Below are positions 1,751 through 19,413 of a stretch of DNA of 20,745 nucleotides, piece after piece. Position 1 is the first letter of the stretch; every line of letters starts with the position of its first letter. The stretch comes from Deltaproteobacteria bacterium. Lineage in GTDB: Bacteria; Desulfobacterota; DSM-4660; Desulfatiglandales; B25-G16. The translations under genes and the position numbers were made by a program. The stretch covers positions 1-20,745 of the forward strand of contig JAFDHR010000014.1 of NCBI GenBank assembly GCA_019308645.1, in the 5' to 3' direction. The notes under the pieces are model-generated. The model was given only the letters and a program-made list of their open reading frames with translations, was not told where the DNA came from and made no database searches.

Positions 1751-3147
1751 CTAAAAATAGTACTTCACCGATGCATAAATTTTGTAGTCATTTATTTTAT
1801 CTCCATATTCAGTATAGTCCTTACCCAAAAGGAATGTAGCTTTAAGGTCGAGTTCAAGATTGGTTATGGGGGTATATGTTATCTGAGGCGTGATTGCTGC
1901 GCTTTTATCATTTATATTGTAGATACAGGCCATAGAAGGAGTGAAATATAAAATGTTAAAGGGCTCTTTTTGAGTCACCTTTAAGTAAAGATAATCTCTC
2001 ATTACTGTCTGTTTGTTATAGAATTGACTTCCATATTTCCTGCTTGTGGCAAGCTTAGCCATGCTTCCGCTGCTAATGTACTCCTGATATCCGTCTTCAA
2101 TCAGGGTGAAGTAATCTGTCATTTCATCTTTGGTGTAACCCTGACCGTTCCTGTAATATTCGAAAATAAAAGTTGTGTCACTCTTTGTCAGATAGCGCAT
2201 GCCAAGAAGAAAATTCAATACATCATCTTTTTCTTCTATGAGGTTGCCTGCTTGATCAGCGATATATTTAACATAATCCAGAACAACAGCTGCTTCACCA
2301 TGAACCTCAAAATTAGGAGAAAGGTTTTTAGAAAAGTCGAATCCGAAACGGTCATTAACTTCTTCTCCAAGCAGGAACATAACGTCCAAATCTGTATCGA
2401 AAGTGAAAAAATAAATTTTACTTCCCCAGACAATCTCCCTTTCCGTACCCCACTCATCATTGACATGTTTCGATACAGGAAGAATTACAGGCGTTAAGGC
2501 TATGGTCTTTAGCTGGCCACCCATACTTTTTATCAGATCACCGGTAGCAACATAGTATCCTTCCAGGGTTGCATCCGGATCTTCTATATCTTTCGGGCGA
2601 CTGAAAAAGGCTACCGGGTTCCAGGCATATCCCTTGCCCCACTTTAAGACTTTTTTGCCCGCATCTAATGTTGTAGACGGACCGGGCAGCAGAGATACAT
2701 AAGCCTCTTCTGTTCGCCGGTCATTTTCCCAGTCTTCATCACCATTATAGTAAAGATCTCCATTAAGGCGCGCGTAAAGTTTTACTATGCTAACCTGGTA
2801 ACTCCCCTCAACCTTGAGATTCAAATCCGTTTGAAAAAAGGTGTCATCATCCCTTCCGTTCGGGTATTTTTGATGAAAGAGGAGGCTATCTTCATCCAGG
2901 CCCTTTACCGTCTCGGATATCTCGAGCTCGGCTTTGAACTCGTAAGGTTTTTTTTCAACCTCAGGGATTTCAAAGTCGAGATTGAGTGTATCAGAAGTCT
3001 GAGATTGAGTGTATCAGAAGTCTGGTCCTCTGCTCTTGCATATCCGTGCAAAGAAATAGCCGGAAAAACCAAAAGCCACCATAGAAGAAAAAGGGTATAT
3101 TTCCTGAGCTCGCAGCAGCAAAATTGTGAAAAGCGTGTAAAAAACAT
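1751..3147 (-). pseudogene. Outer-membrane beta-barrel protein gene, frameshifted by a 23-bp duplication
   Basis: The first frame begins at 3147 and encodes a signal peptide: a charged start, the core YTLFLLWWLLVF, and a probable cleavage after ARA before EDQ. The second frame covers the rest, ending at 1751 with KYYF and a terminal aromatic residue typical of barrels inserted by BAM. The body has alternating aromatic/hydrophobic strands (EGYYVATGD, DTTFIFEYYRNGQGY, ELDLKATFLLGKDY) and no long hydrophobic helix. The two frames are separated by an exact 23-bp tandem duplication (2978-3023). Removing one copy gives EDQTSDTLNLDFEIPEVEKK read directly into the barrel frame and a total of 1374 bp, 457 residues. 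A TGA lies in the barrel frame within the duplicated copy, so no bypass start can restore the export signal. The gene follows the LolA-like gene by 45 bp. Likely an outer-membrane partner of the ABC/LolA-like set; cargo unknown. Confidence 0.8.
2978..3023. repeat. Exact 23-bp tandem duplication inside the barrel gene
   Basis: Bases 2978-3000 and 3001-3023 are identical. Since 23 is not a multiple of three, the duplication shifts the frame. The gene is intact with one copy. The two copies have no difference, consistent with a very recent event, a reversible slippage site or an assembly error. Confidence 0.95.
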
Positions 3148-3192: not shown

Positions 3193-3924
3193 CTATCTGA
3201 GACTTTCCACTTTCGGCATATAATTTAAGGAAAAAATTTCATCAGGCAAATCTTTTTTCTTAACCTTTGCAAAAATAATAATCGACCTGTAGTCTTTATA
3301 AAGAGGGCTGTCTGTCTCTATTACGGCAGGGCGTACAATTCCTCCGCCAAAATCCTTGATATTCTTAAAATAAAGGGTCTTGATCAACATGCCTGACGAG
3401 GCGAAGCATTCTATTTTGACTGGAAGAGGTCTTTTACCGTCAACCCACATTTTAACTCTGTCGTAAGCAACGGTCTTTGTCTTTGCTTTAAGGTAAAGGA
3501 TATGTCCTTTATCTGCCTCTTCAACTTTATCACAGTCATATTCCGCACTATAATCTACCCGCATAATATCCGAATTATTGAACACTCCTCCGGTTACCGA
3601 CTGAAGACTGGTTATGCGTATCGGTTTGCCGACATTAGGAATATAAAGCCACATGTTTTCCCCGATCCGCAGGGTGCTCCTCCCTTTTTCACTGGCCGGA
3701 GATAGAAAGACAGATGCAATCTTATCTTTTCCTTTTTTAACTGAATACATTACAAATTCTTTTTTTGAGCCGTCCGGCTCAATATTTATCAGCTTTCTGT
3801 ACATTTCAAAACTTTCTGGATTCAAATTACGATCAACTTTTTTAAGCATTTCATCCCCGTCAAGGGCAAATGCCGGTGCAGCGGCAAACATGCAAATAAA
3901 AATTACAAGTAGTATTTTCTTCAT
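3193..3924 (-). CDS. LolA-like outer-membrane lipoprotein-sorting family protein, exported
   Basis: A 243-residue protein with a clear signal peptide (MKKILLVIFICMFAAAPAFA, cleavage before LDGDE). The mature part matches the LolA-like family known as outer-membrane lipoprotein-sorting proteins: MYRKLINIEPDGSKKEF, RIGENMWLYIPNVGKPIRI, then SVTGGVFNNSDIMRVDYSAEYD at about 110-131. Family knowledge: these have a half-barrel fold with a hydrophobic groove and carry lipid or lipoprotein cargo across the periplasm; many sit beside MMPL or FtsX-type transporters, and the cargo is usually undefined. AAGGGG about 7 nt upstream of the ATG supports the start. Between it and the upstream permease lie 252 bp containing an inverted repeat. 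It is followed by the barrel gene. In context it is probably the periplasmic shuttle between the ABC exporter and the outer membrane. Confidence 0.87.
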   Translation of the reverse strand: MKKILLVIFICMFAAAPAFALDGDEMLKKVDRNLNPESFEMYRKLINIEPDGSKKEFVMYSVKKGKDKIASVFLSPASEKGRSTLRIGENMWLYIPNVGKPIRITSLQSVTGGVFNNSDIMRVDYSAEYDCDKVEEADKGHILYLKAKTKTVAYDRVKMWVDGKRPLPVKIECFASSGMLIKTLYFKNIKDFGGGIVRPAVIETDSPLYKDYRSIIIFAKVKKKDLPDEIFSLNYMPKVESLR

Positions 3925-3971
3925 AATACACCCCTTAAATCAATTAACTTTATTTGTAATTCAGGTTCGGT

Positions 3972-4148
3972 GGTTCACGGTTCAGAGGTTCAAGGTTTTA
4001 TCTGACAAAGCAAGCTCCGCTTTTAAAAGTAGTGTGGGCTAAAGAAACAGATTAGATATGCTTAAGGTTTCGAATCTGGCTTACCCACTAACCGTTAACT
4101 TTGAACCGTAACCCTGAGTATAAGGCCTTTAACCTTGAACCGTGAACC
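3972..4148. repeat. Long-range inverted repeat of GGTTCACGGTTC type between permease and LolA-like genes
   Basis: The left arm is 3972-3997 and the right arm 4131-4148. The right arm, reverse complemented, reads GGTTCACGGTTCAAGGTT and equals the left arm with an 8-nt piece removed. More copies of the GAACCGTGAAC-like motif lie at 4101-4110 and 4148-4160. The same motif class recurs at 9724-9756. In the - strand transcript the arms could fold with a loop of about 130 nt between the permease and the LolA-like frames. No gene is seen in the gap. Confidence 0.65.
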
Positions 4149-4176
4149 CTTGAACGGTAAACAATTACCTTTATTC

Positions 4177-5430
4177 CTATACATGCCCCAAAGCATCAAC
4201 CGGTTCCATTCTGGAAGCCTTATATGCGGGTTGCAAAGTGGCAAAAACCGATACCAGTAAAACGATTGCCGACACCCAAATAAGTTCTGAGGAGCTAATT
4301 GTCGGAGACAATAAAAGATTATCCTGCCTGCCAAAAGCATACTGTATTTTGTAAATGTTTAAAATATAAATTCCGATAATGCCGATAATATTTCCGGCCA
4401 GAGTGCTGATCAGACCGAGGGACAAGCCTTCTGCCAGAAAGAGGCCCATTATCTTGCCTGGTGCGGTTCCAATGGCGGACATCGTTCCGATTTCCCTGAC
4501 CCTTTCGTAAACAGACATCATCATAACATTTAAAATGCTTATAAGAACAATAGCGATCATAATTATTTTCATAGAAACAGTCATGATTTCTATCATTGTA
4601 GCTATATTTGAAAAAGGTGAAAGCTTTTCCCATGTATGTATTTCAAAAGCAGCTTTTCCTTTTTTATTTTTAAACTCAGCCAGAGCTGATTTAAGTTCTA
4701 TGTAAACATAGTTTAGCTTATCAAATTTCTTAATCCGTAAAGCGATTTCTATAACTTCCGGTTTTTCCATACGAAGCAAAGATTCAGCATCCTTTATATG
4801 CATATACCCTTCTTTGCCCTGGGGCCCTAAAATGCTTTCTATAATCCCGGCCACCGTAAAGTTGAGGCCGTTTACAGAGCCATCTTTGTTGTTGGCTACA
4901 AGGACCACAGAGTCTCCAATTTTAATCTTCAAACCTGCGGACAGTTTTTCAGGAATAATGATTTCTCCAGGTTTGAGCAGAATATCCGGTACTTGGCTGC
5001 CGCTGAATTTCATGCGCTCACTGACATTGGGGCAAACTTTAATTTCCTTCTCCGGATCAATTGCATTTAAGCGGATGTTGGTAGTTTCTGTAAAATTACT
5101 CAGCATAGCGCTAAGCTTTATTCTTGGTGCATAAGCCTCAACATCGGGATTCTCTTTGAGTACTTTTTCGAGCGTTTTGTAGCCTTTTTGATTAATGGTC
5201 AGATTTAGCGGCGAAGTATCTATAGAAGCTACATAACCTTTTTTATGGATCTGCATTTGAGCCAGGTTTGAGTCGGTAATCTGGCCGATCATCATTTCTT
5301 TAAATGAGCCTGCAAGTCCTGAAAAAAGTATCACCATCAATAGGCCGAGTGTGATTAGCATAGAGGTCAGCAAAGTCCTTCGCTTGTATCGCATAAGGTT
5401 CCTTAATGCTATTTGAAATACTCGAATCAT
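4177..5430 (-). CDS. FtsX/LolE-type ABC transporter permease
   Basis: A 417-residue inner-membrane protein with the layout of the LolC/E and MacB permease family: a first membrane helix at about 20-40, a large periplasmic MacB-PCD-type domain at about 41-280, then three helices near 282-306, 328-357 and 383-400. The cytoplasmic coupling segment SVYERVREIGTMSAIGTAPG (306-325) and the closing PAYKASRMEPVDALGHV are typical. Family knowledge: these permeases do not form a channel; they pull cargo from the inner membrane or drive periplasmic partners by a mechanotransmission stroke. The start ATG overlaps the stop of the ATPase gene by 4 bp (ATGA), so the two are translationally coupled. With the LolA-like and barrel genes downstream, the likely job is movement of lipid or lipoprotein to the outer membrane; a MacB-like efflux role is the alternative. 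Confidence 0.92.
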   Translation of the reverse strand: MIRVFQIALRNLMRYKRRTLLTSMLITLGLLMVILFSGLAGSFKEMMIGQITDSNLAQMQIHKKGYVASIDTSPLNLTINQKGYKTLEKVLKENPDVEAYAPRIKLSAMLSNFTETTNIRLNAIDPEKEIKVCPNVSERMKFSGSQVPDILLKPGEIIIPEKLSAGLKIKIGDSVVLVANNKDGSVNGLNFTVAGIIESILGPQGKEGYMHIKDAESLLRMEKPEVIEIALRIKKFDKLNYVYIELKSALAEFKNKKGKAAFEIHTWEKLSPFSNIATMIEIMTVSMKIIMIAIVLISILNVMMMSVYERVREIGTMSAIGTAPGKIMGLFLAEGLSLGLISTLAGNIIGIIGIYILNIYKIQYAFGRQDNLLLSPTISSSELIWVSAIVLLVSVFATLQPAYKASRMEPVDALGHV

Positions 5431-6140
5431 TTTTTTTCCTCCTGTACAAACGTTGGACTGTGTTTAGGGTCAAGAAGCCTGCCGTCTTCCAGAGTATGAA
5501 TAACCTCAGCTTCTTCCATGACTCCGGGATCATGGGTGGAAAAGATGAATGTAGTTTTGAATTCATCCCGCATGGCACGCATAAGTCGAATGACATTTAC
5601 TGCAGATTTTTTGTCCAGGTTTGCTGTAGGCTCATCTGCAAGAACAAGTTTTGGCTGTGTTACCAGAGCCCGTGCCACAGCGACTCGTTGTTTCTGACCT
5701 CCTGAAAGCTGGTCGGGAAATTTATCTTTCTGATTCAGCATTCCCACTGATTCGAGAACCTTTAATACCATTTCCTTTCGTTTTGATATGGATTCATTTT
5801 TTATCATTACGAGAGGATATTCAACGTTTTCATAGGTGGTAAGCACCTGAAAAAGGTTGAATGCCTGAAAGATAAACCCAAGGGTAGAGCCCCTGAACGT
5901 TGCGCGACGCCTGCGATTAAAAGTATCCACCTGCTCTTTTCCGATACAAACCTTTCCCTTTGTCGGCTTGTCAAGACACCCGATGAGGTTCAACATGGTG
6001 GTTTTTCCGCTCCCGGAAGGGCCTACAAAAGTAACAAAGGAGGCCTCATCAATGGAAAGAGTAACATCCTGTAAGGCTTTGACCTGCACCTCCCCTGTCT
6101 GGTAAGTTTTTGAAACATTATCAATCTGAACCAAAGCCAT
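5427..6140 (-). CDS. LolD/MacB-type ABC transporter ATPase
   Basis: A 237-residue nucleotide-binding subunit. The start MALVQIDNVSKTY is chosen because AAGGAGA lies just upstream; the frame is open for 22 more codons but those look non-coding. Motifs are complete: Walker A GPSGSGKTT at 40-48, Q-loop FQAF near 91-94, signature LSGGQKQR at 145-152, Walker B LVLADEP at 165-171, D-loop NLD, and H-loop histidine 203 (STHD). It powers the permease encoded by the overlapping next gene. The upstream 132 bp hold a 47-bp palindromic element and separate it from the NifX-like gene, with which it may be cotranscribed. Confidence 0.95.
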   Translation of the reverse strand: MALVQIDNVSKTYQTGEVQVKALQDVTLSIDEASFVTFVGPSGSGKTTMLNLIGCLDKPTKGKVCIGKEQVDTFNRRRRATFRGSTLGFIFQAFNLFQVLTTYENVEYPLVMIKNESISKRKEMVLKVLESVGMLNQKDKFPDQLSGGQKQRVAVARALVTQPKLVLADEPTANLDKKSAVNVIRLMRAMRDEFKTTFIFSTHDPGVMEEAEVIHTLEDGRLLDPKHSPTFVQEEKK

Positions 6141-6177
6141 AATCTTCTCCTTTTTTGAAAAGCAGATTGAACTAGTA

Positions 6178-6224
6178 TTGATGAATTCGTAAAAAGTAAA
6201 AACCACTTTTTACGAAACTATCAA
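6178..6224. repeat. 47-bp palindromic element in the leader of the ABC operon
   Basis: The inner arms TTCGTAAAAAGT (6186-6197) and ACTTTTTACGAA (6205-6216) are a perfect 12-bp inverted repeat with a 7-nt loop. After three unpaired bases on each side the pairing resumes with TTGAT (6178-6182) and ATCAA (6220-6224). It lies 38 bp before the ATPase start, in the untranslated leader on the - strand. The T-run is inside the stem and not after it, so it is not a standard terminator. It looks like a short palindromic (REP- or MITE-like) unit; an operator is possible. Confidence 0.7.
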
Positions 6225-8324: not shown

Positions 8325-8621
8325 TTAAATATTCCCTAACATTTCTTCCAGTTTTGACCTTTTTTTCTCAATGTCTTCGTTCGTTCTTTTAATATTCATT
8401 GGCTTCATAATATCGTATGTTCCATCCTCAAAAAACACAGGCACCTGTAGAAGGTAATCAATATTATCAGGACATCCGGCAGCAAAGAAATGACCAGGCC
8501 TTCTTCCCTGTTTAACTTTATTTCTTATCTTATCCAATGTCTCTGTTGAAATAACCAGACCATGGTGGCCTGTAAAACTCTTCACCAGATTTCCGGGTTC
8601 AAATAAGGTCTTTTTTTCCAT
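8325..8621 (-). CDS. Small unrecognised protein coupled to the CRP/FNR regulator
   Basis: A 98-residue protein not assigned to any family. The start at 8621 (MEKKTLFEPGN) is preferred over the ATG two codons upstream because GGAG then has a 7-nt spacer. Visible features in this numbering are an HH pair at 19-20 in TGHHGLVIS, a basic stretch IRNKVKQGRRPGH at 33-44, one cysteine (50) in AAGCPDNIDY, then LLQVPVFFEDGTYDIMKPMNI and a charged, probably helical tail RTNEDIEKKRSKLEEML. There is no signal peptide or membrane segment, so it is cytoplasmic. Its stop is 1 nt from the regulator start, which points to equal expression and perhaps physical partnership. The His and Cys residues could bind a metal, haem or thiol signal; this is speculation. 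Confidence 0.7.
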   Translation of the reverse strand: MEKKTLFEPGNLVKSFTGHHGLVISTETLDKIRNKVKQGRRPGHFFAAGCPDNIDYLLQVPVFFEDGTYDIMKPMNIKRTNEDIEKKRSKLEEMLGNI

Positions 8622-8659
8622 ATTCATTCTCCATATTGACTTGGTTAAGCCAGTAAGGC

Positions 8660-8696
8660 GTTGAATAGTTGATTTGTAAAAGATGAACTACTCAAC
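8660..8696 (-). other. Hairpin upstream of the small gene/regulator pair
   Basis: Bases 8660-8670 pair with 8686-8696 in an 11-bp stem. In the - strand RNA all positions pair, one as G-U; on the + strand that position is an A-C mismatch, so the fold favours the transcribed strand. The loop is 15 nt. It lies between the AmgK-like stop and the small gene, with no T-run after it. It could be an attenuator, processing site or weak terminator. Confidence 0.45.
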
Positions 8697-8699
8697 CAT

Positions 8700-9698
8700 T
8701 TAACGAATCAATTTTTCAACCATTTTTTTTAGTGGATCTAATTCAGCTTCATCAAGCTTCTTTAAAAGCCCCTCAAGAGATTGTAGGGAAGGGGAAATAT
8801 AGGAAAGGAACCAATTTTTTCCCTGGATCTTGCTCAGATATGAAAAGGCGCCCAATATCTGGAGGTTTCTCTGAATGGCAAGGTAAGGATAATACCTGGT
8901 AAATGAATCAGAGATTCCTGGAATGTGTTTCTCGAGAAGCTTGAGATAATAATCGCACAGAAAGATTTTCTCCTCATTTTTCAGTCCTACATAGGGATCG
9001 ATTAACAAAGAGGCAAGATCATACTGTAGAGGCCCTAAGCGCCCGCCCTGCCAATCTATTAGCCCTGTTTCATCGCCTTTGATGATAAGGTTTCTTGATT
9101 GAAAATCCCTGTGAAGAAAAAAATTGCTATCCGCAAGAGAGGCATTATAGGAAAGGTGTTTAAAAGAGGATTTCAATTCATCTAGATCTTGCTTCAGCCC
9201 ATGGAGCTTTTTCAGGAAATAGGTGAGAAAATAATCTGACTCAAATCTTTCCATAATAAACCTGTCATATCTTTTTGTATGATAACACCATTCAGGGTTA
9301 AAGTCTTCTTTACCCTTGAGCTGGACCTGTATCAAAAGCTCAATAACCCTTTTGTATATATCTATGCGATTATTTGAGTTACAAGCAATTTCCTGGAGAC
9401 TTGTTGTCCCCAAATCCTCCATGATAAACCAGCCGTGATCACGGTCATATCTATAAATACAGGCAACTGGGATTCCTTTCCTAAAAAGATGTTCACCTAT
9501 CTTTAGATATGAGATGTTCTCTTTTTCTGCATTCCTTTCTATGGGTGGATTAGCCATGACTATAAATGAGTCCTGATTATTGCTCAGGCGATAAAAGATT
9601 CTCTTTGAACCATCACCGGGCAATATTTCCCAGCTAAATTCTTTATTATCAACGTAGGTATCATCTATGTATGATTTAACAAATTCCTTTAGATCCAT
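8700..9698 (-). CDS. amgK: AmgK-like aminoglycoside-phosphotransferase-fold sugar kinase
   Basis: A 332-residue cytoplasmic kinase of the APH/choline kinase fold. The N-lobe begins with an ILPGDGSKRIFYRL glycine loop (25-38). The catalytic loop is HRDFQSRN at 196-203, with D198 as base and N203, and the metal motif is LIDWQGGRLGPLQYDLASLL near 213-232 (D215). The arrangement DWQ...GP..YDL is the one seen in AmgK, the anomeric MurNAc/GlcNAc kinase of the MurNAc-recycling bypass. Family knowledge: AmgK phosphorylates recovered MurNAc at C1, and MurU then makes UDP-MurNAc. A MurU-like gene lies 63 bp upstream in the same direction and NagZ is nearby, which supports the assignment. A plain APH-family kinase of another sugar cannot be excluded. 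The ribosome-binding site is weak. Confidence 0.75.
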   Translation of the reverse strand: MDLKEFVKSYIDDTYVDNKEFSWEILPGDGSKRIFYRLSNNQDSFIVMANPPIERNAEKENISYLKIGEHLFRKGIPVACIYRYDRDHGWFIMEDLGTTSLQEIACNSNNRIDIYKRVIELLIQVQLKGKEDFNPEWCYHTKRYDRFIMERFESDYFLTYFLKKLHGLKQDLDELKSSFKHLSYNASLADSNFFLHRDFQSRNLIIKGDETGLIDWQGGRLGPLQYDLASLLIDPYVGLKNEEKIFLCDYYLKLLEKHIPGISDSFTRYYPYLAIQRNLQILGAFSYLSKIQGKNWFLSYISPSLQSLEGLLKKLDEAELDPLKKMVEKLIR

Positions 9699-9723
9699 TA
9701 TGTAAGCCTGTTCATCGTTTTTT

Positions 9724-9756
9724 GTTCACCGTTATCCGTTCACGGTTGACCGTTAA
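9724..9756. repeat. GTTCACGGTT-type repeats between the murU-like and amgK-like genes
   Basis: The 63-bp gap holds serial variants of the same word: GTTCACCGTT at 9724-9733, then CCGTTCACGG and TTGACCGTTAA through 9756. CCGTTCACGG is itself a short palindrome. The motif is shared with the inverted repeat at 3972-4148, so it is a genome-specific interspersed sequence. Confidence 0.55.
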
Positions 9757-9761
9757 TAAGA

Positions 9762-10673
9762 TTATCGGATGGCTACCCCACCAACGAGATCCTTTACTAC
9801 ACTAACGCCGGATGTAACGACGCTATCAACTACCCTAATTCCCTCTTTAATAATCACATCATTCCAGAGAACGGATCTCTGCACAAGGGCATTCTGCTCT
9901 ATTGAGCTTCTTTGTCCAATGACTGCCCAATCTTTTAGGATTGCACTCGAATCTACGCGGCATTGTTCAGCTATAGCACTCTTGCCTGAAGGCAGATGAT
10001 AGAAATTAGCCTTCAAATAATCGGCTATCGTTCCGATGTCGATCCATCTATGACCAGTTGCAATGTAACCTCTAATAGGTTTTTTTAAATCTATCAGCCT
10101 TTTATACGCGTCTATAATATTATATCTTTTTTTATCAGGGATAAAGCTGAGTACCTCGGGATTTATGACGTGAATGCCAGTAAAGGCTAATGTTCCCTTT
10201 AAATCTGTACCTGGGCCGATAGAGAGAATATTCATTTCACTATCTACCCTTATCTTATTATATGGAGGGAAGTCATGGAGAACCATAGTCACGAGGTTAT
10301 TTCTCCTCAGATGAAACGCATAAACATCTCCTAAATCTATATCAGTCAGGATGTCTCCATTGATAACGATAAAGGGATCGTTGCCCCAAAAATCATGGGT
10401 GTTTTTAATTCCACCCCCTGTTCCTAAAATTTCTTTCTCGATCCTGATTTCTACTTTTATATCAAAAGGGTTACCTCCTTTAAGGTAGTCGCGTATCATC
10501 TGGTAATGGTGATGGGCATTGACTATTATTTCTTCTACCTTATGTGCTGTAAGAAATTGTATAATCCTATCTATCACAGGCTTATTAACAACTGGCACCA
10601 AAACCTTAGGGTAAACGCTGGTCAAAGGCCTCAATCTCTCTCCCATGCCAGCAGCTAATATCATTGCTTTCAT
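9762..10673 (-). CDS. murU: MurU-like sugar-1-phosphate nucleotidyltransferase with hexapeptide tail
   Basis: A 303-residue nucleotidyltransferase. The N-terminal Rossmann-like domain has the signature LAAGMGERLRPLTSVYPKVL at 7-26, LGTGGGIKN at 83-91, the metal aspartate of INGDILTDID (D107) and GHRWIDIGTIADYL at 207-220. Residues about 235-303 contain repeated hexapeptide-like units (SSAILKDWAVIGQRSSIEQN, VLWNDVIIKEG, SVVTSGVSVV), a left-handed beta-helix tail. Family knowledge: MurU uses MurNAc-1-phosphate and UTP; Pseudomonas MurU is about 220 residues and has no such tail, so this is a longer form. A mannose- or glucose-1-phosphate transferase is the main alternative. The pairing with the AmgK-like gene and nearby nagZ favours a cell-wall recycling role. 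Confidence 0.7.
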   Translation of the reverse strand: MKAMILAAGMGERLRPLTSVYPKVLVPVVNKPVIDRIIQFLTAHKVEEIIVNAHHHYQMIRDYLKGGNPFDIKVEIRIEKEILGTGGGIKNTHDFWGNDPFIVINGDILTDIDLGDVYAFHLRRNNLVTMVLHDFPPYNKIRVDSEMNILSIGPGTDLKGTLAFTGIHVINPEVLSFIPDKKRYNIIDAYKRLIDLKKPIRGYIATGHRWIDIGTIADYLKANFYHLPSGKSAIAEQCRVDSSAILKDWAVIGQRSSIEQNALVQRSVLWNDVIIKEGIRVVDSVVTSGVSVVKDLVGGVAIR

Positions 10674-10741
10674 AATGTTGCCTTTTTGATTGCATTTATC
10701 TTACAGTAATTATACATGCATAATAGCCATAAGCAATGGCT

Positions 10742-11158
10742 CAATGCAAAATGAAAAGTGCAAATTGAAAATGGAAAAAGAAAAAAATGAGCTTTCAGAG
10801 CGATTATTAGATTTTGCTGCTGAAATAATTAAATTGGCCGTTCAACTTAACAGAAATGCTGTTGGGCGCCATATTAGCGAATAATTAATCCCATCATCAA
10901 CATCAGCAGGCGCAAATTATGAAGAGGCTTGTGGTGCAGAGAGTCGTGCTGATTTTATACATAAATTACAGATAGCTTTAAAAGAGCTACGAGAAACAAT
11001 CTATTGGTTGCGGTTAATTAAAAAGTCCAAACTTGTTTCAAGTGTAACTTTAGAAATGCTTATACAAGAAGCCAAGGAGTTGGCTAATATTATTGCTAAA
11101 TCGATAATCACAGCAAGAAAGAAATAATTTTGTATTTTGATATTTTCATTTTTCATTG
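10742..11158. repeat. Imperfect A-rich inverted repeats flanking the four-helix-bundle gene
   Basis: The left arm 10742-10771 and the reverse complement of the right arm 11128-11158 agree at 23 of 30 positions aligned without gaps, both beginning CAATG and containing AAAATGAAAA. They bracket the four-helix-bundle gene almost exactly: the left arm ends at its start and the right arm begins directly after its stop. The arms are low-complexity, so chance similarity is possible. No transposase is present and no target duplication was found. Confidence 0.45.
10771..11127 (+). pseudogene. Four-helix-bundle (S23-like) protein gene with an in-frame TAA
   Basis: The frame reads MEKEKNELSERLLDFAAEII, continues to VGRHISE, meets TAA at 10882-10884, then goes on without frame change as LIPSSTSAGANYEEACGAES, RADFIHKLQIALKELRETIY, WLRLIKKSKLVSS and on to the natural TAA at 11125-11127. 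In the four-helix-bundle family (related to proteins encoded in 23S rRNA intervening sequences) the text normally runs GRHI..QL..S.TSAGANYEEA.GAES.ADF, so the TAA most likely replaces a CAA glutamine. Total length without the stop is 118 codons, normal for the family. The function of this family is unknown. A downstream restart has no obvious ATG until residue 97, so the gene is probably dead or yields a short fragment. Gene remnant and A-rich flanks together fill the 489-bp space between the murU-like gene and nagZ. Confidence 0.85.
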
Positions 11159-11180
11159 ATGTTTGTGGAAACAGGTAATC

Positions 11181-12248
11181 ATGAATCCTACACTTGATCT
11201 TTCAGAGATTACCCAAAAGATTGGCCGTTTATTTATAGGGGGTATCCCCGGCCCTGAATTGGACACAAATACTATTAGACTAATAAAAAATTACCATCTT
11301 GGCGGCATTATTCTATTTACCAGAAATGTAGAAGATCCAATTCAATTAGCCCGTCTATGCAGGGATATACAGAAGGTGGCAATGGAAAATAGCGGCTATC
11401 CCCTTTTTCTGGCAATTGATCAGGAGGGCGGGAGGGTAGCCAGATTGAAACAACCTTTTAGCCAGTTTTCAGGGAATGCAGGTATAGGAGAAAGCCCTAA
11501 TCCAGAAAAGAGCGCCCTTCAATTTGCCAGCACTACTGCCAGGGAAATGTCTCTGGTTGGGCTTAATATGAATATGGCCCCTGTTATTGATGTAGCTCAA
11601 GCACATATGGACCCTCATCTTATAGGACGAAGCTTTTCTCAGGATCCTTTGCTGGTAACTAAATTGGGAAAAACAGTTATCAATACCCTGCAGCAAGGGG
11701 GTATAATGGCTGTTGCCAAACACTTTCCTGGCTTAGGAAAATCAGATCTCGATCCACACTTACACCTTCCAACTATTCATGCCACTTTTGAAGAGATGGA
11801 ATCTGTCCATCTTGCTCCTTTTCAAGGCGCCATAGAGGCAAATGTCTCTGCCATAATGACCTCTCATGCTGTTTACCCGGCCCTTGAATTAGGTACACCA
11901 GCAACCCTTTCAAGAAAAATTATGACTAATCTCTTGAGAGAAACGATGAACTTTGATGGGTTGATTATCTCAGATGATCTGGAGATGGGTGCAATAGTGA
12001 GAGAAAGAGGGCTGCCTGAAGGCGCAGCAGATGCCTTTGAGGCAGGTATTGATCTATTACTTATTTGTAAAAGCCAGTCCATCCTCCTTGACAGCATAGG
12101 GTTTATAAGAGATAAAATTCTACAAGGAAATATTCCCTATGAAAGATTAGAGAAGTCTTTAGAGAGGATTAACAAATACAAAAAGCGCTTCCTCTATCCT
12201 CGAAAGAGGATATCACTAAAGGCTGTAAAGGAATATTTCGGAAACTAA
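11181..12248 (+). CDS. nagZ: Beta-N-acetylhexosaminidase (NagZ, GH3)
   Basis: A 355-residue glycoside hydrolase family 3 enzyme. The ATG at 11181 (MNPTLDLSEI) has AGGT 4 nt upstream; a TTG six codons earlier is less likely. Motifs seen: LAIDQEGGRVARL at 78-90, AKHFPGLGKSDLDPHLHLP at 179-197, and the nucleophile loop IISDDLEMGAI at 262-272. The catalytic Asp-His dyad (D191, H193) of the flexible loop is kept, while the usual KHFPGHG reads KHFPGLG. There is no signal peptide, as expected of the cytoplasmic enzyme that removes GlcNAc from 1,6-anhydro-muropeptides. The divergent AmgK- and MurU-like genes would consume the released amino sugars. Confidence 0.92.
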   Translation: MNPTLDLSEITQKIGRLFIGGIPGPELDTNTIRLIKNYHLGGIILFTRNVEDPIQLARLCRDIQKVAMENSGYPLFLAIDQEGGRVARLKQPFSQFSGNAGIGESPNPEKSALQFASTTAREMSLVGLNMNMAPVIDVAQAHMDPHLIGRSFSQDPLLVTKLGKTVINTLQQGGIMAVAKHFPGLGKSDLDPHLHLPTIHATFEEMESVHLAPFQGAIEANVSAIMTSHAVYPALELGTPATLSRKIMTNLLRETMNFDGLIISDDLEMGAIVRERGLPEGAADAFEAGIDLLLICKSQSILLDSIGFIRDKILQGNIPYERLEKSLERINKYKKRFLYPRKRISLKAVKEYFGN

Positions 12249-12256
12249 CTTTGTTC

Positions 12257-12301
12257 TTGACAAAAGTAAAGAAAAAAATCTATTTTACTGTAAAACAGTA
12301 A
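12257..12301 (+). promoter_or_regulatory. Promoter and operator-like palindrome of the toxin-antitoxin pair
   Basis: A perfect -35 box TTGACA (12257-12262) is followed after 18 bp by TATTTT (12281-12286). Overlapping and following the -10 are two palindromes: TTTTAC-T-GTAAAA (12283-12295) and TTACTG-N5-CAGTAA (12285-12301). Another GTAAAA word lies further down, just before the antitoxin ATG. Their position suits autorepression by the AbrB-type antitoxin. Confidence 0.65.
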
Positions 12302-12313
12302 TAAGGTAAAACT

Positions 12314-12589
12314 ATGAAAATTAGCAGTAAAAGGCAAATTTCTATTCCTAAAAAGGTTATGGAGGCATTGGGTCTACAACCCGGAGATGAGTTGGAATTC
12401 GAGATTGAAGGAAACGCAGCACACCTGATCCCCATTAAGACCATCAAGGTTCCGAGAGACCAGGCCTGGTTTTGGACCCCGGAGTGGCAAGCAAGAGAAA
12501 AGGAGGCAGACCAGGATCTATACGCAGGACGGTATGAAGAGTTCGATATACTGGACGACCTTTTGAAAGATTTGCATCGTGAAGATTAG
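12314..12589 (+). CDS. AbrB/SpoVT-type antitoxin
   Basis: A 91-residue protein whose first 45 residues form a swapped-hairpin AbrB domain (MKISSKRQISIPKKVMEALG, LQPGDELEFEIEGNAAHLIP), the DNA-binding part. The tail, rich in W, D and E (WFWTPEWQAREKEADQDLY, FDILDDLLKDLHRED), is acidic and probably wraps and blocks the basic toxin. AAGG lies 7 nt before the ATG. The last 11 bp overlap the toxin gene, so the two are coupled. Family knowledge: AbrB-type antitoxins usually pair with MazF or PIN toxins; pairing with a RelE-fold toxin is also known, for example PrlF-YhaV. Confidence 0.88.
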   Translation: MKISSKRQISIPKKVMEALGLQPGDELEFEIEGNAAHLIPIKTIKVPRDQAWFWTPEWQAREKEADQDLYAGRYEEFDILDDLLKDLHRED

Positions 12590-12836
12590 ACGCACAAACT
12601 CTTTTCTGAAGGATTATCGAACACTATCAGCAGAGATACAGGCCCAGGTTGACAAGCAACTCACTCTCCTCCTTGAGAACCCAAGACATCCATCTCTCAG
12701 GCTGAAAAAACTTAAAGGTACGGGCATCTTTGCGATAAGGGTAAGCAAAGGCTATCGCCTGACCCTTAGGTATGAAAGTAGGGTTTTAGAACTCCGTCGG
12801 GTTGGAACGCATGACCTCTTGCGAAAGGAAGGGTGA
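12579..12836 (+). CDS. RelE/ParE-superfamily toxin
   Basis: An 85-residue basic protein of the RelE/YoeB/YafQ type: MKIRRTNSFLKDYRTLSAEI at the start, LLLENPRHPSLRLKKLKG near 30-47, FAIRVSKGYRLTLRYE near 50-65 and the end RRVGTHDLLRKEG, as in mRNA-cleaving RelE relatives. Family knowledge: such toxins cut mRNA in the ribosome, or (ParE branch) inhibit gyrase; the THD ending favours the ribonuclease branch. It overlaps the antitoxin gene by 11 bp, and an open GTG frame for the following kinase overlaps its stop by 4 bp. Confidence 0.88.
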   Translation: MKIRRTNSFLKDYRTLSAEIQAQVDKQLTLLLENPRHPSLRLKKLKGTGIFAIRVSKGYRLTLRYESRVLELRRVGTHDLLRKEG

Positions 12837-12877
12837 TTTTCTGTACAAAAAGACGCAATTATCAAAAAGGTATGAAA

Positions 12878-15586
12878 ATGAAAGATGCAGATAAAACCAA
12901 GGAACAACTCATGCATGAACTGACAGAAATGCGCCTAAAGATTACCAAATTTGAGGAATTAGAAACTGGCCTTAAGAAGACCAAGGAGAAACTCGAGCAT
13001 CAGAAAAAGCATTTAGAATCATTACTTAAATACAGCTCATTAGCCATAGTAACTCTTGATGAGGGTCAAACTATTATTTCGTGTAACCGAGATTTTGAAA
13101 AGCTCTTTCAATTTAAAGAATCTGATATCGTCGGCAACAATCTTGATGAACTCATTGCAGGGCAACAATACATAAAAGAAGCTGTATCATACACAAAAGA
13201 AACCCTTAGGGGCAAAGCAATTCATGGATACGGTGAACGAAAAAGGAAAGATGGCACAAATATATACGTTGAAATTTTTGGTGTACCAGTGGTCATAGAT
13301 GGAAAGCTGGTAGGTGCATATGGGATTTATCAAGACATTAGCGAGCGTAAGCAGGCAGAGGAATTGTTCCGGACATTATTTGATAGATCACCTGTTGGCC
13401 TATTTATTATTCAGGATAGAAAGTTTCAATTAATAAACCCCCAGTTCCTTCAGCTCACAGGCTACAAAGAAGATGAATTTTTAGGTAAGGATTCTCTGGC
13501 CTTCATCCTTCCCGAAGACAGAAATATGGTCAGAGAAAATACCATTCAAATGTTAAAGGGGAAACTTATTCTTACATTTGAATTAAGGGTTATTAATAAA
13601 ACTGGTGAAACGAGGTGGATAGAACAGACAATCACCTCCGTTCATTATAATGGAAGACCGGCGATCTTAGGTTACTATGTGGATATATCCGAACGCAAGC
13701 GTGTAGAACAAGAGTTAAGAAAAAGTGAAGAACGTTATCGTATGCTTTTTAAGCAATCTCCCCTTGGAATAATACACTTTGATCAGAAAGGGGTCATTGT
13801 GGATTGTAATAAAAAATTTGTAGAAATTATTGGATCTACAAGGAAAAAGCTTATTGGATTTAATATGCTCAAATCTTTGCGAGACAAAAAAATGCTGTCA
13901 GCAGTTGAGAGAGCTCTATCAGGAGGAACCGGTTATTACGAAGGCGATTATCTATCCGTTACCGGGGGCAAACTTACGCCCATGAGGGCTATATACAATA
14001 GAATTACATCTGAGGATGGAAACTTTTTAGGCGGTATTAGTCTTTATGAAGACATCACAGAGCGCAAGCGGGCCGAGGAGGAGTTGCGGGATAGCGAAGA
14101 GCGTTTAAAGACCATAATGGACTCCGTTCAAGCAGGAATTGTGATCATCAATACAGAAACACACACCATTGTTGATGCAAATCCTGCTGCCATCGAAATG
14201 ATAGGCGCTCCTAAGGAGCAGATTATTGGTCATGTGTGCCATAAATATATCTGCCCAGCAGAAAAGGGAAAGTGCCCGATTACTGATCTCGGACAAGAGG
14301 TAGATAACTCAGAGAGAACACTTCTTACAGCAACTGGAGCAGAAGTACCCATTCTAAAGACCGCTACCCCCATTCTATTGAGCGGTCAGCCACATCTGCT
14401 AGATATATTTATTGACATCACAGAGAAAAAGAAACTCGAGGCTCAACTCCAACAGGCCCAGAAGATGGAGGCCGTTGGTACCTTAGCAGGTGGCATTGCC
14501 CATGATTTTAATAATATTCTTCAGGCAATTTTCGGCTATACCCAGATCCTTTTGATGGGAAAGGAGCCGAGCAATCCTGACTATGAGAAGCTTGAAGCAA
14601 TCGAAAAATCTGCACAGAGGGCCAGTGATCTTACCAAACGGCTCCTGATTTTTAGCCGGAAAGTGGAAAGTAAACTCAGGCCCGTGGATCTCAACAACGA
14701 AATTGAACAGGTCTCTAAAATGCTTGAGCGGACTATCCCAAAGATGATTAATATCGAATTACATCTCTCAAAAGACATTAAAATCATCAATGCAGATCCT
14801 GCTCAGATAGAACAGATTATGATGAATCTTGGAGTCAATGCCAGGGATGCCATGCCTAATGGCGGCAGACTGATATTTGAGACAGAAAATGTGATTTTAG
14901 ATGAGGAATACTGCAAAATCCATTCAGGATCAAAGCCAGGGCAGTATGTTAAGCTTAGCATCTCTGACAATGGCCACGGTATGGATAAGGAGACCCTCAG
15001 ACACATCTTCGAGCCCTTTTACACCACCAAAGAGACTGGCAAGGGCACAGGGCTTGGCCTGGCTATGGTCTATGGCATTGTTAAAAGCCACAATGGATAT
15101 ATCATGTGTTACAGCGAGCCAGATGAGGGCACTATCTTTAAAATCTATTTTTCTATTATTGAAAAAGAAGCAGAAAGAGTGGAGTCAAAAAAGGAAAAGA
15201 TTCCCATCAAAGGAGGCACCGAAACCATTTTGTTAGTGGATGATGAAGAGCCTATCCGAGAACTTTGTAAAGATATCCTTGCCAGGTTTGGCTACACGGT
15301 GCTTATGGCCTCAGATGGGGAAAGCGCCCTGGAGATCTACCGTGAGAAGAAGGAGGAAATCAATCTGGTTATTTTGGATATAATTATGCCTGGGATGGGT
15401 GGAAGGAAATGCCTTGAAGAACTTCTCAAGTTGAATCCAAAGTCAAGGATTATTATCGCAAGTGGTTATTCTATCAATGGGCCCGCTAAGGAAGTCCTCA
15501 AAGCTGGAGCAAAAGGTTTCATCAGCAAGCCTTATGATATGAGAGGGATGCTACAAACAGTTCGTAAGATCCTGGATGAGGATTGA
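12878..15586 (+). CDS. Hybrid sensor histidine kinase with four PAS domains and a receiver
   Basis: About 902 residues, counted from the ATG at 12878, which has AAGG 7 nt upstream; an ATG two codons earlier and a GTG at 12833 overlapping the toxin stop are alternatives. Order: coiled coil (about 5-45); PAS1 (about 45-155); PAS2 (160-275); PAS3 (280-400); PAS4 (405-520), each ending in an ISERK/ITERK/ITEKK linker; HisKA with phospho-His 542 in AGGIAHDFNN; HATPase with N-box EQIMMNLGVNARDAM, DNGHGM and GKGTGLGLAMVYG (about 720-735); then a REC domain (783-902) with acceptor D834 in LVILDIIMPGMGG and DDE at its start. No membrane helix or signal peptide, so it senses inside the cell. PAS4 has a Cys cluster (C454, C459, C466: CHKYICPAEKGKC) that may sense redox state or bind a metal. 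No separate output regulator is adjacent. Confidence 0.93.
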   Translation: MKDADKTKEQLMHELTEMRLKITKFEELETGLKKTKEKLEHQKKHLESLLKYSSLAIVTLDEGQTIISCNRDFEKLFQFKESDIVGNNLDELIAGQQYIKEAVSYTKETLRGKAIHGYGERKRKDGTNIYVEIFGVPVVIDGKLVGAYGIYQDISERKQAEELFRTLFDRSPVGLFIIQDRKFQLINPQFLQLTGYKEDEFLGKDSLAFILPEDRNMVRENTIQMLKGKLILTFELRVINKTGETRWIEQTITSVHYNGRPAILGYYVDISERKRVEQELRKSEERYRMLFKQSPLGIIHFDQKGVIVDCNKKFVEIIGSTRKKLIGFNMLKSLRDKKMLSAVERALSGGTGYYEGDYLSVTGGKLTPMRAIYNRITSEDGNFLGGISLYEDITERKRAEEELRDSEERLKTIMDSVQAGIVIINTETHTIVDANPAAIEMIGAPKEQIIGHVCHKYICPAEKGKCPITDLGQEVDNSERTLLTATGAEVPILKTATPILLSGQPHLLDIFIDITEKKKLEAQLQQAQKMEAVGTLAGGIAHDFNNILQAIFGYTQILLMGKEPSNPDYEKLEAIEKSAQRASDLTKRLLIFSRKVESKLRPVDLNNEIEQVSKMLERTIPKMINIELHLSKDIKIINADPAQIEQIMMNLGVNARDAMPNGGRLIFETENVILDEEYCKIHSGSKPGQYVKLSISDNGHGMDKETLRHIFEPFYTTKETGKGTGLGLAMVYGIVKSHNGYIMCYSEPDEGTIFKIYFSIIEKEAERVESKKEKIPIKGGTETILLVDDEEPIRELCKDILARFGYTVLMASDGESALEIYREKKEEINLVILDIIMPGMGGRKCLEELLKLNPKSRIIIASGYSINGPAKEVLKAGAKGFISKPYDMRGMLQTVRKILDED

Positions 15587-15621
15587 AGCCTTACGTTACT
15601 TTTAAAAATTATTCCTGCTTG

Positions 15622-16134
15622 ATGTCTAACAATCAATCTGATAATTTAAATATATTAAAGGCATTCAAGAGCGCTAATTTTGTCGACAAGGTTGCCTTAA
15701 TTTTATCCATCTGGTTCGGCACAGGGCTTTTTCCTGGCATGCCAGGTACTTTTGGCACAGCTGGGGCAATACCTTTATATTTTTTAATAGATTTTTTAGG
15801 GGCTATATATCAGGCCTTAATTTTACTTATAACAATCATAGTAGCAATATGGTCATCTCATAGAAGCCAATGTATCCTGGGCACGGTTGATCCAGGTGCG
15901 ATCGTTATTGATGAGGTAGCCGGGTTTTTATTGAGCATTATTTTTATCCCCTTTACCTTGAGAAACCTGATAGCAGGGTTTTTTCTTTTTAGGTTTTTTG
16001 ATATTCTCAAACCACCTCCGATAAAGAAAATAGAAAAAAAGGTAAAGGGAGGACTTGGAGTCGTTCTTGACGATCTTATAGCCGGTTTCTATGCCCATCT
16101 ATCTTTATGGTTTTTCCTGTATATGCTCGAATGA
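15622..16134 (+). CDS. pgpA: Phosphatidylglycerophosphatase A
   Basis: A 170-residue inner-membrane enzyme that dephosphorylates phosphatidylglycerol phosphate to phosphatidylglycerol. Conserved parts: ILSIWFGTGLFPGMPGTFGT near the start, DPGAIVIDEVAGFLLS in the middle, FRFFDILKPPPIKKIEK, and GGLGVVLDDLIAGFYAH at the end. The hydrophobic segments between these fit the usual four helices. The start is uncertain: ATG 15622 has no clear ribosome-binding site, while a TTG at 15583 overlaps the kinase stop and has GAGG close upstream, giving 183 residues. It begins the conserved pgpA-cinA-thpR-recA block. Confidence 0.9.
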   Translation: MSNNQSDNLNILKAFKSANFVDKVALILSIWFGTGLFPGMPGTFGTAGAIPLYFLIDFLGAIYQALILLITIIVAIWSSHRSQCILGTVDPGAIVIDEVAGFLLSIIFIPFTLRNLIAGFFLFRFFDILKPPPIKKIEKKVKGGLGVVLDDLIAGFYAHLSLWFFLYMLE

Positions 16135-16144
16135 TGGCATTTAC

Positions 16145-16208
16145 GAATTTAGAAATTAAGGAATTTAGGAATTAAGGAATTTAGGGATTTAAGAATTTAG
16201 GAATTAGT
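16145..16208. repeat. Eight-unit AT-rich tandem repeat between pgpA and cinA
   Basis: Eight consecutive 8-bp units, mostly alternating GAATTTAG and GAATTAAG-like variants (effective period 16 bp): units begin at 16145, 16153, 16161, 16169, 16177, 16185, 16193 and 16201. The odd units are all exactly GAATTTAG; the even ones vary. It fills most of the 94-bp gap and ends 20 bp before the cinA start. Confidence 0.85.
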
Positions 16209-16228
16209 CGCTGAGCATTAAAAAAATT

Positions 16229-17485
16229 ATGCAAACAGAGATCATAATCATAGGCAATGAATTGATCTCAGGAAAGACAAGAGATCTTAATGGCTGGTAT
16301 GCATCAGGCTGTCTTTTATCCCATGGTCTTGAAGCAAGCGAAATCAGAACCGTTGGCGACAACTACGATACACTTTCTTCTGTGCTGCGGTCAGCGGTAA
16401 AAAGGTCTTATTTTGTAATTGTTACTGGTGGCTTAGGCCCTACCGAGGATGATCTTACCGCCGAGATAGCATCCAAGGCCTTAGATATGCCTCTTTTCCT
16501 TGATCAGGCCGTTCTTGATCACATAAAGAATACTACAAAAAAATCAGCCTTAAACTGGTCTGCTTCTTTAGAGAAATTGGCCTGGCTTCCAAAAGGTGCA
16601 AAAATGTTAGACCCTCAAGGGAAGATGTGTGGCTTTTCACTATCTAAGGGGGAAAGTCTCCTCTACTTTCTACCAGGTGTACCTGAGCAGATGAGGGAGT
16701 TGATGAATAGGTGTGTTATTCCGGATATTCTGCGAAGGTACAAACCAGCTGCTGTCCCACGGCATAGAATACTGAAAGTCTATGGACTAAGTGAATCCCG
16801 TATTTCAGATGTTTTCAAAGGTCTCAGTGATGAACTGAAACGGGTAATGTTTGGATTTTACCCCTCCTTCCCTGAAAATCATATCACTATCACGGTTCGG
16901 GGGAAAAACGATACAGAGATTGAAAGGGAATTAAATAGGGCAGAGAAAAAAATCAGGCATCTTTTAGGGCCTTATATATTTGCATCTGGTGATACAATTA
17001 TGGAGTCTGTTGTTGGAGAGTTGTTAAAGGAGCGGAAGATGACGATTTCTGTAGCGGAATCATGCACAGGCGGTCTTATTGGTCACAGGCTTACATCTAT
17101 ATCAGGCAGCTCTCTTTATTTTGAAAGAGGTCTTATTGTTTACAGTAACATATCCAAGATCGAGATGCTTGGGGTAATGCAAGAAACCATAGACTCATAT
17201 GGGGCTGTCAGTGATCAGGCGGTACGGGAAATGGCCGAGGGTGTCAAGAAAATTGCAAAAACTGATATGGGGCTTGCTGTAACAGGAATTGCCGGACCTC
17301 TCGGAGGATCAGAGGATAAACCAGTTGGTACGGTATTTATTGGTCTCTCGGTAGATGGCGAAATATATTCTGGAAAATACTGCTTTTCAGGAGACAGAGA
17401 TAAGGTAAAATATAATACTTCAGAGATGGCCCTTGACTGGGTAAGGAGATATCTCAATGGGTATCCGTTCATTCCTGGCATTTGA
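16229..17485 (+). CDS. cinA: CinA family protein: MoCF-like domain plus NMN deamidase (PncC)
   Basis: A 418-residue two-domain protein. Residues 1-170 are the molybdopterin-binding-like (MoaB/MogA) domain with IIIGNELISGKTRDLN and TGGLGPTEDDLT (66-77), which in studied CinA proteins acts as an ADP-ribose pyrophosphatase. Residues about 255-415 are the PncC domain with AESCTGGLIGHRLT (276-289), FERGLIVYSNISK and AVTGIAGPLGG (350-360), which deamidates nicotinamide mononucleotide in NAD recycling. Both domains are complete. No good ribosome-binding site precedes the ATG. The last 29 bp overlap thpR, and recA follows, the classical cinA-recA neighbourhood. Confidence 0.94.
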   Translation: MQTEIIIIGNELISGKTRDLNGWYASGCLLSHGLEASEIRTVGDNYDTLSSVLRSAVKRSYFVIVTGGLGPTEDDLTAEIASKALDMPLFLDQAVLDHIKNTTKKSALNWSASLEKLAWLPKGAKMLDPQGKMCGFSLSKGESLLYFLPGVPEQMRELMNRCVIPDILRRYKPAAVPRHRILKVYGLSESRISDVFKGLSDELKRVMFGFYPSFPENHITITVRGKNDTEIERELNRAEKKIRHLLGPYIFASGDTIMESVVGELLKERKMTISVAESCTGGLIGHRLTSISGSSLYFERGLIVYSNISKIEMLGVMQETIDSYGAVSDQAVREMAEGVKKIAKTDMGLAVTGIAGPLGGSEDKPVGTVFIGLSVDGEIYSGKYCFSGDRDKVKYNTSEMALDWVRRYLNGYPFIPGI

Positions 17486-18047
17486 ACTTCCAGTTGAGAT
17501 CAGAGAACAAATCAGGGCTGTTTCCAAAGAATTAAAAAAAACAGCCCTGCCAGTGAGATGGGTTAAGGCAGACAATATTCACCTTACTATACTGTTTCTT
17601 GGCTCTGTTGATGAAGATACAATAGGTGATATAGAAGAAAAGGTGAATCTGGTGGTAAAAGGCTTTTCTGCATTTCAGGCTAAGCTCAATGCTGTTGGGG
17701 TATTCCCACATTGGCGAAGGCCGCGGGTTATCTGGATTGGCCTTGATGGAGATATAGGGAGATTGTCAAATCTCAGGGATGAGTTACAGGAAGAACTAAA
17801 AGGCTTGGGTTTTATGCCGGAAAAAAGGCCATTTAGAGCACACCTCACGCTTGGCCGCTTTAAGGGCCATTTAGATCGGCCTGAGGATATGAAATGGATT
17901 CTCGACAGATATCATGATATTAATAGTGACCTGTATCAGCTGAATGAACTTATTCTTTATAAAAGTGATCTCAAGCCAGATGGGCCGGTTTATACAAAAA
18001 TGGCTACGTGGCCATTGAGGGCGGAGAATTCAGGGACATCGCCCTAA
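17457..18047 (+). CDS. thpR: RNA 2',3'-cyclic phosphodiesterase (ThpR/LigT)
   Basis: A 196-residue member of the 2H phosphoesterase family. The two catalytic HxT/S-h motifs are present: HLTI at 42-45 (KADNIHLTILFLGS) and HLTL at 129-132 (RPFRAHLTLGRFKG). Family knowledge: it opens 2',3'-cyclic phosphate ends of RNA and has a minor 2'-5' RNA ligase activity. The start lies inside cinA with AAGGAG 9 nt upstream, so translation is probably coupled. Length is close to the family norm. Confidence 0.94.
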   Translation: MGIRSFLAFELPVEIREQIRAVSKELKKTALPVRWVKADNIHLTILFLGSVDEDTIGDIEEKVNLVVKGFSAFQAKLNAVGVFPHWRRPRVIWIGLDGDIGRLSNLRDELQEELKGLGFMPEKRPFRAHLTLGRFKGHLDRPEDMKWILDRYHDINSDLYQLNELILYKSDLKPDGPVYTKMATWPLRAENSGTSP

Positions 18048-18054
18048 TGGGATA

Positions 18055-18131
18055 CCTGCCCGCCATCGGCTTCGCCTCAGGCGTATGCCGGGCGGGCTCA
18101 GGCCCTGCCCGACGGACGGCAGGCGGGTCTG
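18055..18131. repeat. GC-rich double-hairpin repeat between thpR and recA
   Basis: An island of G and C in AT-leaning DNA. The first hairpin pairs GCCCGCC (18058-18064) with GGCGGGC (18091-18097) and encloses a small one, CGCC-tca-GGCG (18073-18083). The second pairs CCTGCC (18104-18109) with GGCAGG (18118-18123). Bases 18107-18131 match 451-475 after hcp at 23 of 25 positions. Both copies lie just after a stop codon. No T-run follows. Confidence 0.65.
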
Positions 18132-18192
18132 CGTCTAAAATGGAATTTCTCTACACTATTTAATGAGGTTTTGGAAAAGAGGGGGGATTGTT

Positions 18193-19236
18193 ATGGCAGC
18201 AAATTCAGAAAAAAACAAGTCTGTGGATTTGGCTATTACACAGATTGAAAAGCAGTTTGGAAGGGGCTCTATTATGAAATTGGGTCGAGGTGGGGCGGTT
18301 ATGGATATTCCTGTCATCTCTACAGGCTCGCTTGCCCTGGATGCAGCCCTTGGTCTGGGTGGTGTGCCACGGGGGAGGGTGATAGAAATCTTTGGACCAG
18401 AGTCCTCAGGAAAAACGACTCTTGCCCTTCATATTGTTGCAGAGGCACAGGCGAAGGATGGAATGGCTACCTTTATAGATGCGGAGCATGCCCTTGATTT
18501 GGCATATGCCAGGAGACTGGGAGTCAATGTTGATGATCTTCTTGTCTCCCAACCAGACAATGGTGAGCAGGCGCTAGATATCGCTGAAATCCTGGTAAGA
18601 AGCGGGGCCATGGATGTCCTGGTAATCGACTCTGTTGCAGCCCTTGTTCCAAGGGCAGAGATAGAAGGTGAAATGGGAGATCAGCAGGTTGGATTACAGG
18701 CGAGATTGATGTCAAAGGCCCTTAGAAAATTGGCGGCAAGTATCAGTAGATCAATGACATGTGTCATTTTTATAAACCAGATCAGGATGAAAATCGGGGT
18801 AATGTTTGGGAACCCAGAGACCACTAGCGGTGGAAATGCGCTCAAGTTTTATGCAACTCAACGTCTTGATATTCGAAGGATTGCATCCATACAAGAGGGG
18901 GACAAAAAAATAGGAAATAGAACAAGGGTTAAGGTAGTAAAAAATAAGATTGCCCCTCCTTTTAGGATGGCCGAGTTTGATATTATTTTTGGGAGCGGGA
19001 TATCAAAGGAGGGAGACATATTAGACTTAGGGGTTGGATTAGATATAGTTGAGAAGAGTGGCGCCTGGTTCTCATTTAATGAAGAAAGGATTGGCCAGGG
19101 AAGGGAGAATGTTCGAAGATTTTTGGCCGAGCATACGGATATAATGAAAGATATCTCTGACAGGGTAAAGGAAAAGCTTGGCTTAGGTGAGAAAAAAGGC
19201 GAAGCTCTCCCTAAAACGGACGAGTTAAAAGAGTAA
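18193..19236 (+). CDS. recA: Recombinase RecA
   Basis: A 347-residue RecA, complete. The start [10 protein letters not shown] is set by a GAGGGGGG stretch just upstream; a frame-extending ATG 10 codons earlier lies before that site. Motifs: Walker [10 protein letters not shown] (68-76), IDAEHALD (95-102), Walker [10 protein letters not shown] (143-151), L1 loop [20 protein letters not shown] and L2 loop [20 protein letters not shown] (195-214), which bind DNA. The tail is charged, ending in DELKE. It forms the ATP-dependent filament for strand exchange and stimulates LexA self-cleavage. No LexA box was recognised upstream. No recX follows; alaS is next. Confidence 0.98.
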
Positions 19237-19249
19237 ATATCATATTGCT

Positions 19250-19332
19250 TTAGGCGAAACGATGGTGATTTCGTCTAATGTTCTACGGTTGCGCCCTTCG
19301 GCCTCGAGCTGCACAACCGCAACCGTTCTACG
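19250..19332 (+). other. Structured intergenic RNA segment between recA and alaS
   Basis: The first stem, TTAGGCGAAA (19250-19259) with TTTCGTCTAA (19269-19278), has 10 pairs, one of them G-U in the + strand RNA, and a 9-nt loop. The second is a perfect 9-bp inverted repeat, ACGGTTGCG (19285-19293) with CGCAACCGT (19318-19326). The word GTTCTACG stands on both sides of the second stem (19280-19287 and 19325-19332). No T-run follows either stem. No T-box motif or known riboswitch was recognised. It could be a recA 3' end structure, an alaS leader, or another dispersed repeat. Confidence 0.5.
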
Positions 19333-19413
19333 ATCCCAATTATCTTCTGAACCTTATTGGCGTTACAAGAACTTGAAACAAATATTAAGATCTTAACTTA
19401 AATAGACGGCTAG

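Follow-up and report, generated by a model that had tools for sequence, protein, structure and literature searches.

Outer-membrane barrels are typical targets of phase variation, and spontaneous tandem sequence duplications in pneumococcal capsule genes reportedly cause phase variation, going by the titles of work by Waite et al. from 2001 and 2003. In serotype 8 pneumococcal isolates the capsule was lost through a tandem duplication in wchA, as described in the available passages of PMC4022640. For contingency loci, in which translational phase variation works through a repeat number that sets the frame of a surface protein gene, section 3.1 of PMC4235727 links phase variation to hypermutable tracts that contain several units, and the table of that paper classes a 5-mer present twice as mutable (1e-7 to 1e-5 per division) and tracts of at least three units as hypermutable, with no entry for a 23-bp unit. 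Excerpts of PMC6819657 state that silenced genes revert at 1e-4 to 1e-10 and do not contain the word 'duplication', those of PMC4853749 deal with mobile elements and disrupted genes, and in the accessible text of PMC11868660 neither 'duplication' nor 'tandem' occurs. With respect to gene content, the Borrelia BBJ23-29 cluster encodes a MacB-like ABC transporter, a LolA-like protein and an outer-membrane barrel together, according to the excerpt of PMC13078400.

The locus described here lies in a window of 20,745 nucleotides, by which we mean the whole stretch of DNA that was analysed. Its features are as follows.

1751 to 3013, minus strand: remainder of the barrel gene, 420 open codons with a terminal phenylalanine (ORF list; 3664 homologues at E<=0.001)
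2905 to 3147, minus strand: beginning of the barrel gene, with signal peptide and linker followed by out-of-frame residues to a stop (ORF list, 80 aa)
2978 to 3000, minus strand: repeat copy read second by the gene (aligned relatives have a single unit)
3001 to 3023, minus strand: repeat copy read first by the gene, codons 42-49 in the start frame (exact 23-bp match to 2978-3000)
3193 to 3924, minus strand: gene of a LolA-like periplasmic carrier protein (PF17131), open (Pfam E=3.5e-42)
4177 to 5430, minus strand: gene of a LolC/E- or MacB-like permease (FtsX, MacB_PCD), open (Pfam; NCBIfam lolCE E=2.3e-35, below cut-off)
5427 to 6140, minus strand: gene of a LolD-like ABC ATPase, open (Pfam ABC_tran E=9.2e-32; NCBIfam LolD E=1.5e-63, below cut-off); the ORF is listed as 5427-6206, from an upstream GTG

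A sequence-only reading of this DNA had reported two exact, adjacent 23-bp copies at 2978-3023, and both are there: 2978-3000 and 3001-3023 are identical and adjoin each other within a maximal period-23 run of 2978-3024. Among the 13 rows of Tandem Repeats Finder for the window the 23-bp repeat has the top score (97, versus 92 for the runner-up, an 8-bp array at 16139-16205), and elsewhere in the window exact tandem units of at least 12 bp are confined to 16154-16185, within that array. In 60 sequences simulated with first-order base statistics (Markov-1), an exact tandem duplication of a 12-39 bp unit arose once; a chance origin of an exact 23-bp duplication should be negligible. The 8-bp array (ATTTAGGA, about 8 copies) also has short matches in six contigs of G001, a genome from the order of the closest relative.

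The barrel gene begins with an ATG at 3147 on the minus strand, and the duplication starts in codon 42, shortly past an A-x-A signal-peptidase-like motif at residues 37-39 (signal peptide and motif were called by eye). The extra 23 bp shift the frame, and translation runs into a stop after 80 codons, which closes the start frame at 2905. The two copies thus do place the barrel out of frame right after the signal peptide, as had been claimed, and split the gene into an 80-codon start and a 420-codon remainder. The 457-codon frame predicted for a single copy is as long as P0001 and P0002, which among intact homologues are the closest, and the remainder ends in the expected terminal phenylalanine. 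Programmed ribosomal frameshifting and translational restart were considered as possible ways past the break; for a restart, the earliest start codon that would read the remainder in frame is a TTG at 2824, past the signal peptide.

Our preferred reading, to which we give a probability of roughly 0.7, is a tandem duplication that arose recently in one lineage or subpopulation, shifts the frame of an outer-membrane barrel gene and inactivates it, and is not an evolved switch. A replication slip would have added a second copy of 23 bp to the flexible linker that joins the signal peptide to the barrel, the frame would shift with a stop after 80 codons and no barrel being exported, and loss of one repeat copy would allow reversion at a modest rate. 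We infer that the duplication is present in living cells, is recent, abolishes function and can revert. The duplication mechanism as such is ordinary, and a mixed population is possible, as an array of two copies can lose one. The 5-nt direct repeat GACTT, which occurs close to the beginning of the unit and also directly after the second copy, may have served as a seed for slippage; by itself it predicts a step of 22 bp, not 23, and the exact slip is thus left unexplained.

An assembly or consensus artefact, in which the cells carry one unit and the second stems from assembly or from mixed strains, appears unlikely to us. It would agree with the single unit in the relatives that were read, and for the 80-aa start fragment no candidate turned up among ∼5.8 billion predicted proteins when three shared 5-residue words and a similar length were required, although this silence is weak evidence given those word and length criteria and because gene callers often skip such fragments. 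Against it, the 46-bp array should fit within ordinary short reads and the usual assembly words, so that an assembler would presumably need reads across the junction to build it, and the other long frames of the window appear intact in our own reading of the ORF list, so that the DNA is not rich in errors.

The closest relative is the Desulfobacteraceae MAG CSMAG_2790 (locus L001, a contig of 3,017 bp), with a protein 94% identical. When it is aligned to the window, exactly 23 nt are missing from it at the site, and its frame is open; this 23-nt gap is common to the four relatives that were aligned together (L001, L032, L033 and L034). For the comparison at the site, 33 of 57 loci had a best barrel match starting at query residue 20 or earlier, and these represent 31 distinct loci, since L001-L003 are one contig; they are the best search matches, the site being unread in weaker relatives, and L022 is cut by a contig end. 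The frame is open through the region in all 31, the duplication occurs in none of them, and a scan for units of 5-59 bp found no exact tandem repeat with a unit above 14 bp within the gene frame of any. In agreement with the adjacent exact copies and a length that is not a multiple of three, the single unit of the relatives marks the window's array as a frameshifting tandem duplication.

The first option of the sequence-only reading had been an ON/OFF (phase-variable) locus of a surface protein, in which the 23-bp unit is gained and lost. In favour of this, exact tandem units can contract, the encoded protein belongs to a typical target class and the capsule genes provide a precedent, as far as the accessible material on them goes. 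The repeat number sets the frame of a surface protein gene here as in contingency loci, and the capsule duplications are likewise short duplications within a reading frame that inactivate a surface-related gene, according to the excerpts. By the accessible text of PMC4235727, contingency loci have several short units and a high switching rate, whereas the window has two long ones, a low number by the table in that text. On the coding strand the unit holds a TGA in one of its three frames. Each further unit of 23 bp is read in another frame than the one before, which means that arrays of at least three units always meet the TGA and expansion cannot open the gene. Among unit numbers only the single-unit state, as in the relatives, is therefore open, and the gene would not cycle between open and closed by repeat number. 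The tract is neither present nor variable among the 31 distinct relatives, same-species sequences not being among them. For the capsule genes, phase variation is named in titles, while the window offers one assembled sequence. Hence we regard an evolved ON/OFF locus as decidedly improbable and the duplication as a one-way, perhaps revertible inactivation instead of a contingency locus, whereas the second option of that reading, a recent loss, fits best with relatives that are open and single-unit. We give very little credence to a further idea, that the barrel is kept as a mixed open and closed population through spontaneous revertible duplications in an indel-tolerant linker, with stochastic loss of the outer-membrane exit. 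High frequencies of both forms in reads would argue that environmental bacteria switch an export-type operon stochastically. The case also illustrates that a chance frameshift and an evolved phase-variable locus are separable by comparing relatives and reading the unit in all frames.

The barrel gene is real and conserved. Besides the 3664 homologues of the remainder (among the 120 listed, the top 30 have lengths of 442 or 457 aa), barrel matches are present in 116 of 389 sampled genomes of the order. All 81 near-full-length matches in this sample lack an internal stop and have open frames of at least 429 aa (hand count); near-full-length here means from query residue 17 or earlier to 412 or later, and since the query was the remainder, the duplication site itself is unread in the weaker matches. 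Compared with L001, the remainder (419 codons, gapless) shows dS 0.19, dN 0.03 and dN/dS 0.16, with segment values of 0.11, 0.36, 0.10 and 0.14, which places the gene under selection during most of the period after its divergence from L001. The break looks young because of this low dN/dS, the gapless alignment and the lack of any further stop or second lesion within the remainder, but dN/dS spans the whole time since the split and gives no date for the break. The duplication is probably younger than the split from L001, judging by its identical copies. Divergence from L001 along 1751-3013 is mosaic: the first 400 nt are 84-92% identical, the following 700 nt 97-100% and the final 157 nt 93%, which suggests recombination inside the barrel gene.

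Neither a Pfam family at cut-off nor a convincing NCBIfam family was obtained for the barrel, searching PDB sequences with the family profile yielded weak matches only (best E=0.072), and Rfam returned nothing at gathering scores. In the predicted model of the relative P0001 (mean pLDDT 77, pTM 0.71) the strands lie between residues 61 and 456, and Foldseek and VIA-align placed the model with AlgE, OprD/Occ porins and MOMP, although sequence identity of P0001 to OprD/Occ porins, Campylobacter MOMP and AlgE is 5-12% in the rows shown. The protein of the relative is thus predicted to be an OprD/AlgE-type outer-membrane barrel, and the signal peptide called by eye, the predicted barrel fold and the terminal aromatic residue are together those of an outer-membrane beta-barrel. 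Confidence in the model falls below 50 at residues 29-55, the linker that holds the duplication site. Comparing P0001 as reference with 55 others (56 of the 120 listed homologues), 115 indel events were counted. Residues 1-39 hold 69 of them, and 23 of these are insertions directly after residue 39; residues 40-60 hold 20, and the barrel part (61-457, 397 residues) holds 26, of which 24 fall at one position. Length variation is thus concentrated ahead of the barrel. A slip in the linker is unsurprising, because the linker of this family varies in length.

The window contains an ABC ATPase, an FtsX-type permease and a LolA-like gene together, as assigned by Pfam, in the order ABC ATPase, permease, LolA-like gene and, as last gene, the barrel. 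The gene set is like that of the Borrelia cluster, although the Borrelia barrel has an Omp85-family domain according to the excerpt of PMC13078400, while that of the window is predicted to resemble OprD/AlgE. The cluster looks like an export system. Assignment to LolCDE proper was rejected, with scores below the NCBIfam curated cut-offs (LolD 214.3 of 307.75 bits, LolCE 122.3 of 362.45 bits). Next to the barrel lies the LolA-like gene in all 31 distinct loci (partial in L001), and the permease is present in 27 of them; L001 and L053 end before reaching it, and L054 and L055 have a NifX-like gene in its place. A conserved, unnamed barrel thus travels with an ABC/LolA-like cluster in Desulfobacterales-type genomes. 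Following the barrel, a 346-aa ORF (608-1648), taken from its ATG, matched no family in Pfam or NCBIfam; the L001 contig is devoid of the stretch 443-1699, and there the barrel adjoins a gene that we name Hcp-like.

In 13 genomes from the order to which L001 belongs, the permease of the cluster and RecA of the window were compared. Identity is 82-94% for the permease in 12 of the 13 (not in G001, and with partial matches in G003 and G008), versus 64-69% for RecA, likewise in 12 of 13 (no match in G031). The best RecA matches among 395 sampled genomes of the phylum, presumably Desulfobacterota by the record name of L001, are G544 (91%) and G691 (81%). Parts of 8526-19900 match G544 at 90-93% (one 79-bp piece at 82%), and G691 has a barrel at 66% identity. 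In G544, a draft of 2.2 Mb, no barrel match was obtained, and its contig ends at the point matching 8526 of the window. The discordance between permease and RecA means that the cluster was probably exchanged between lineages, or that the window or the bins of the relatives are mixed; the break of the frame is unaltered by it. Decay of an operon that was acquired from elsewhere and is not needed would overlap with the recent inactivation we prefer and would be its cause, and the discordance as well as the missing barrel match in the genome with the best RecA match speak for it. We consider such decay possible, if doubtful, since the upstream genes of the cluster are open, the barrel remainder has no second lesion, G544 is a draft whose contig ends at the match to 8526, and a chimeric window or misbinned contigs of relatives could mimic the discordance. 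The discordance spans 3193-6206 (cluster) versus 18163-19236 (RecA). As a separate observation on G544, its contig lacks 12755-15578, the region of a 917-aa ORF that is sensor-kinase-like in our own reading, and the flanking pieces are adjacent there. One further draft, G043, carries two barrel genes (contigs C86 and C190), 86% and 77% identical to that of the window, which could reflect transfer, duplication or misbinning.
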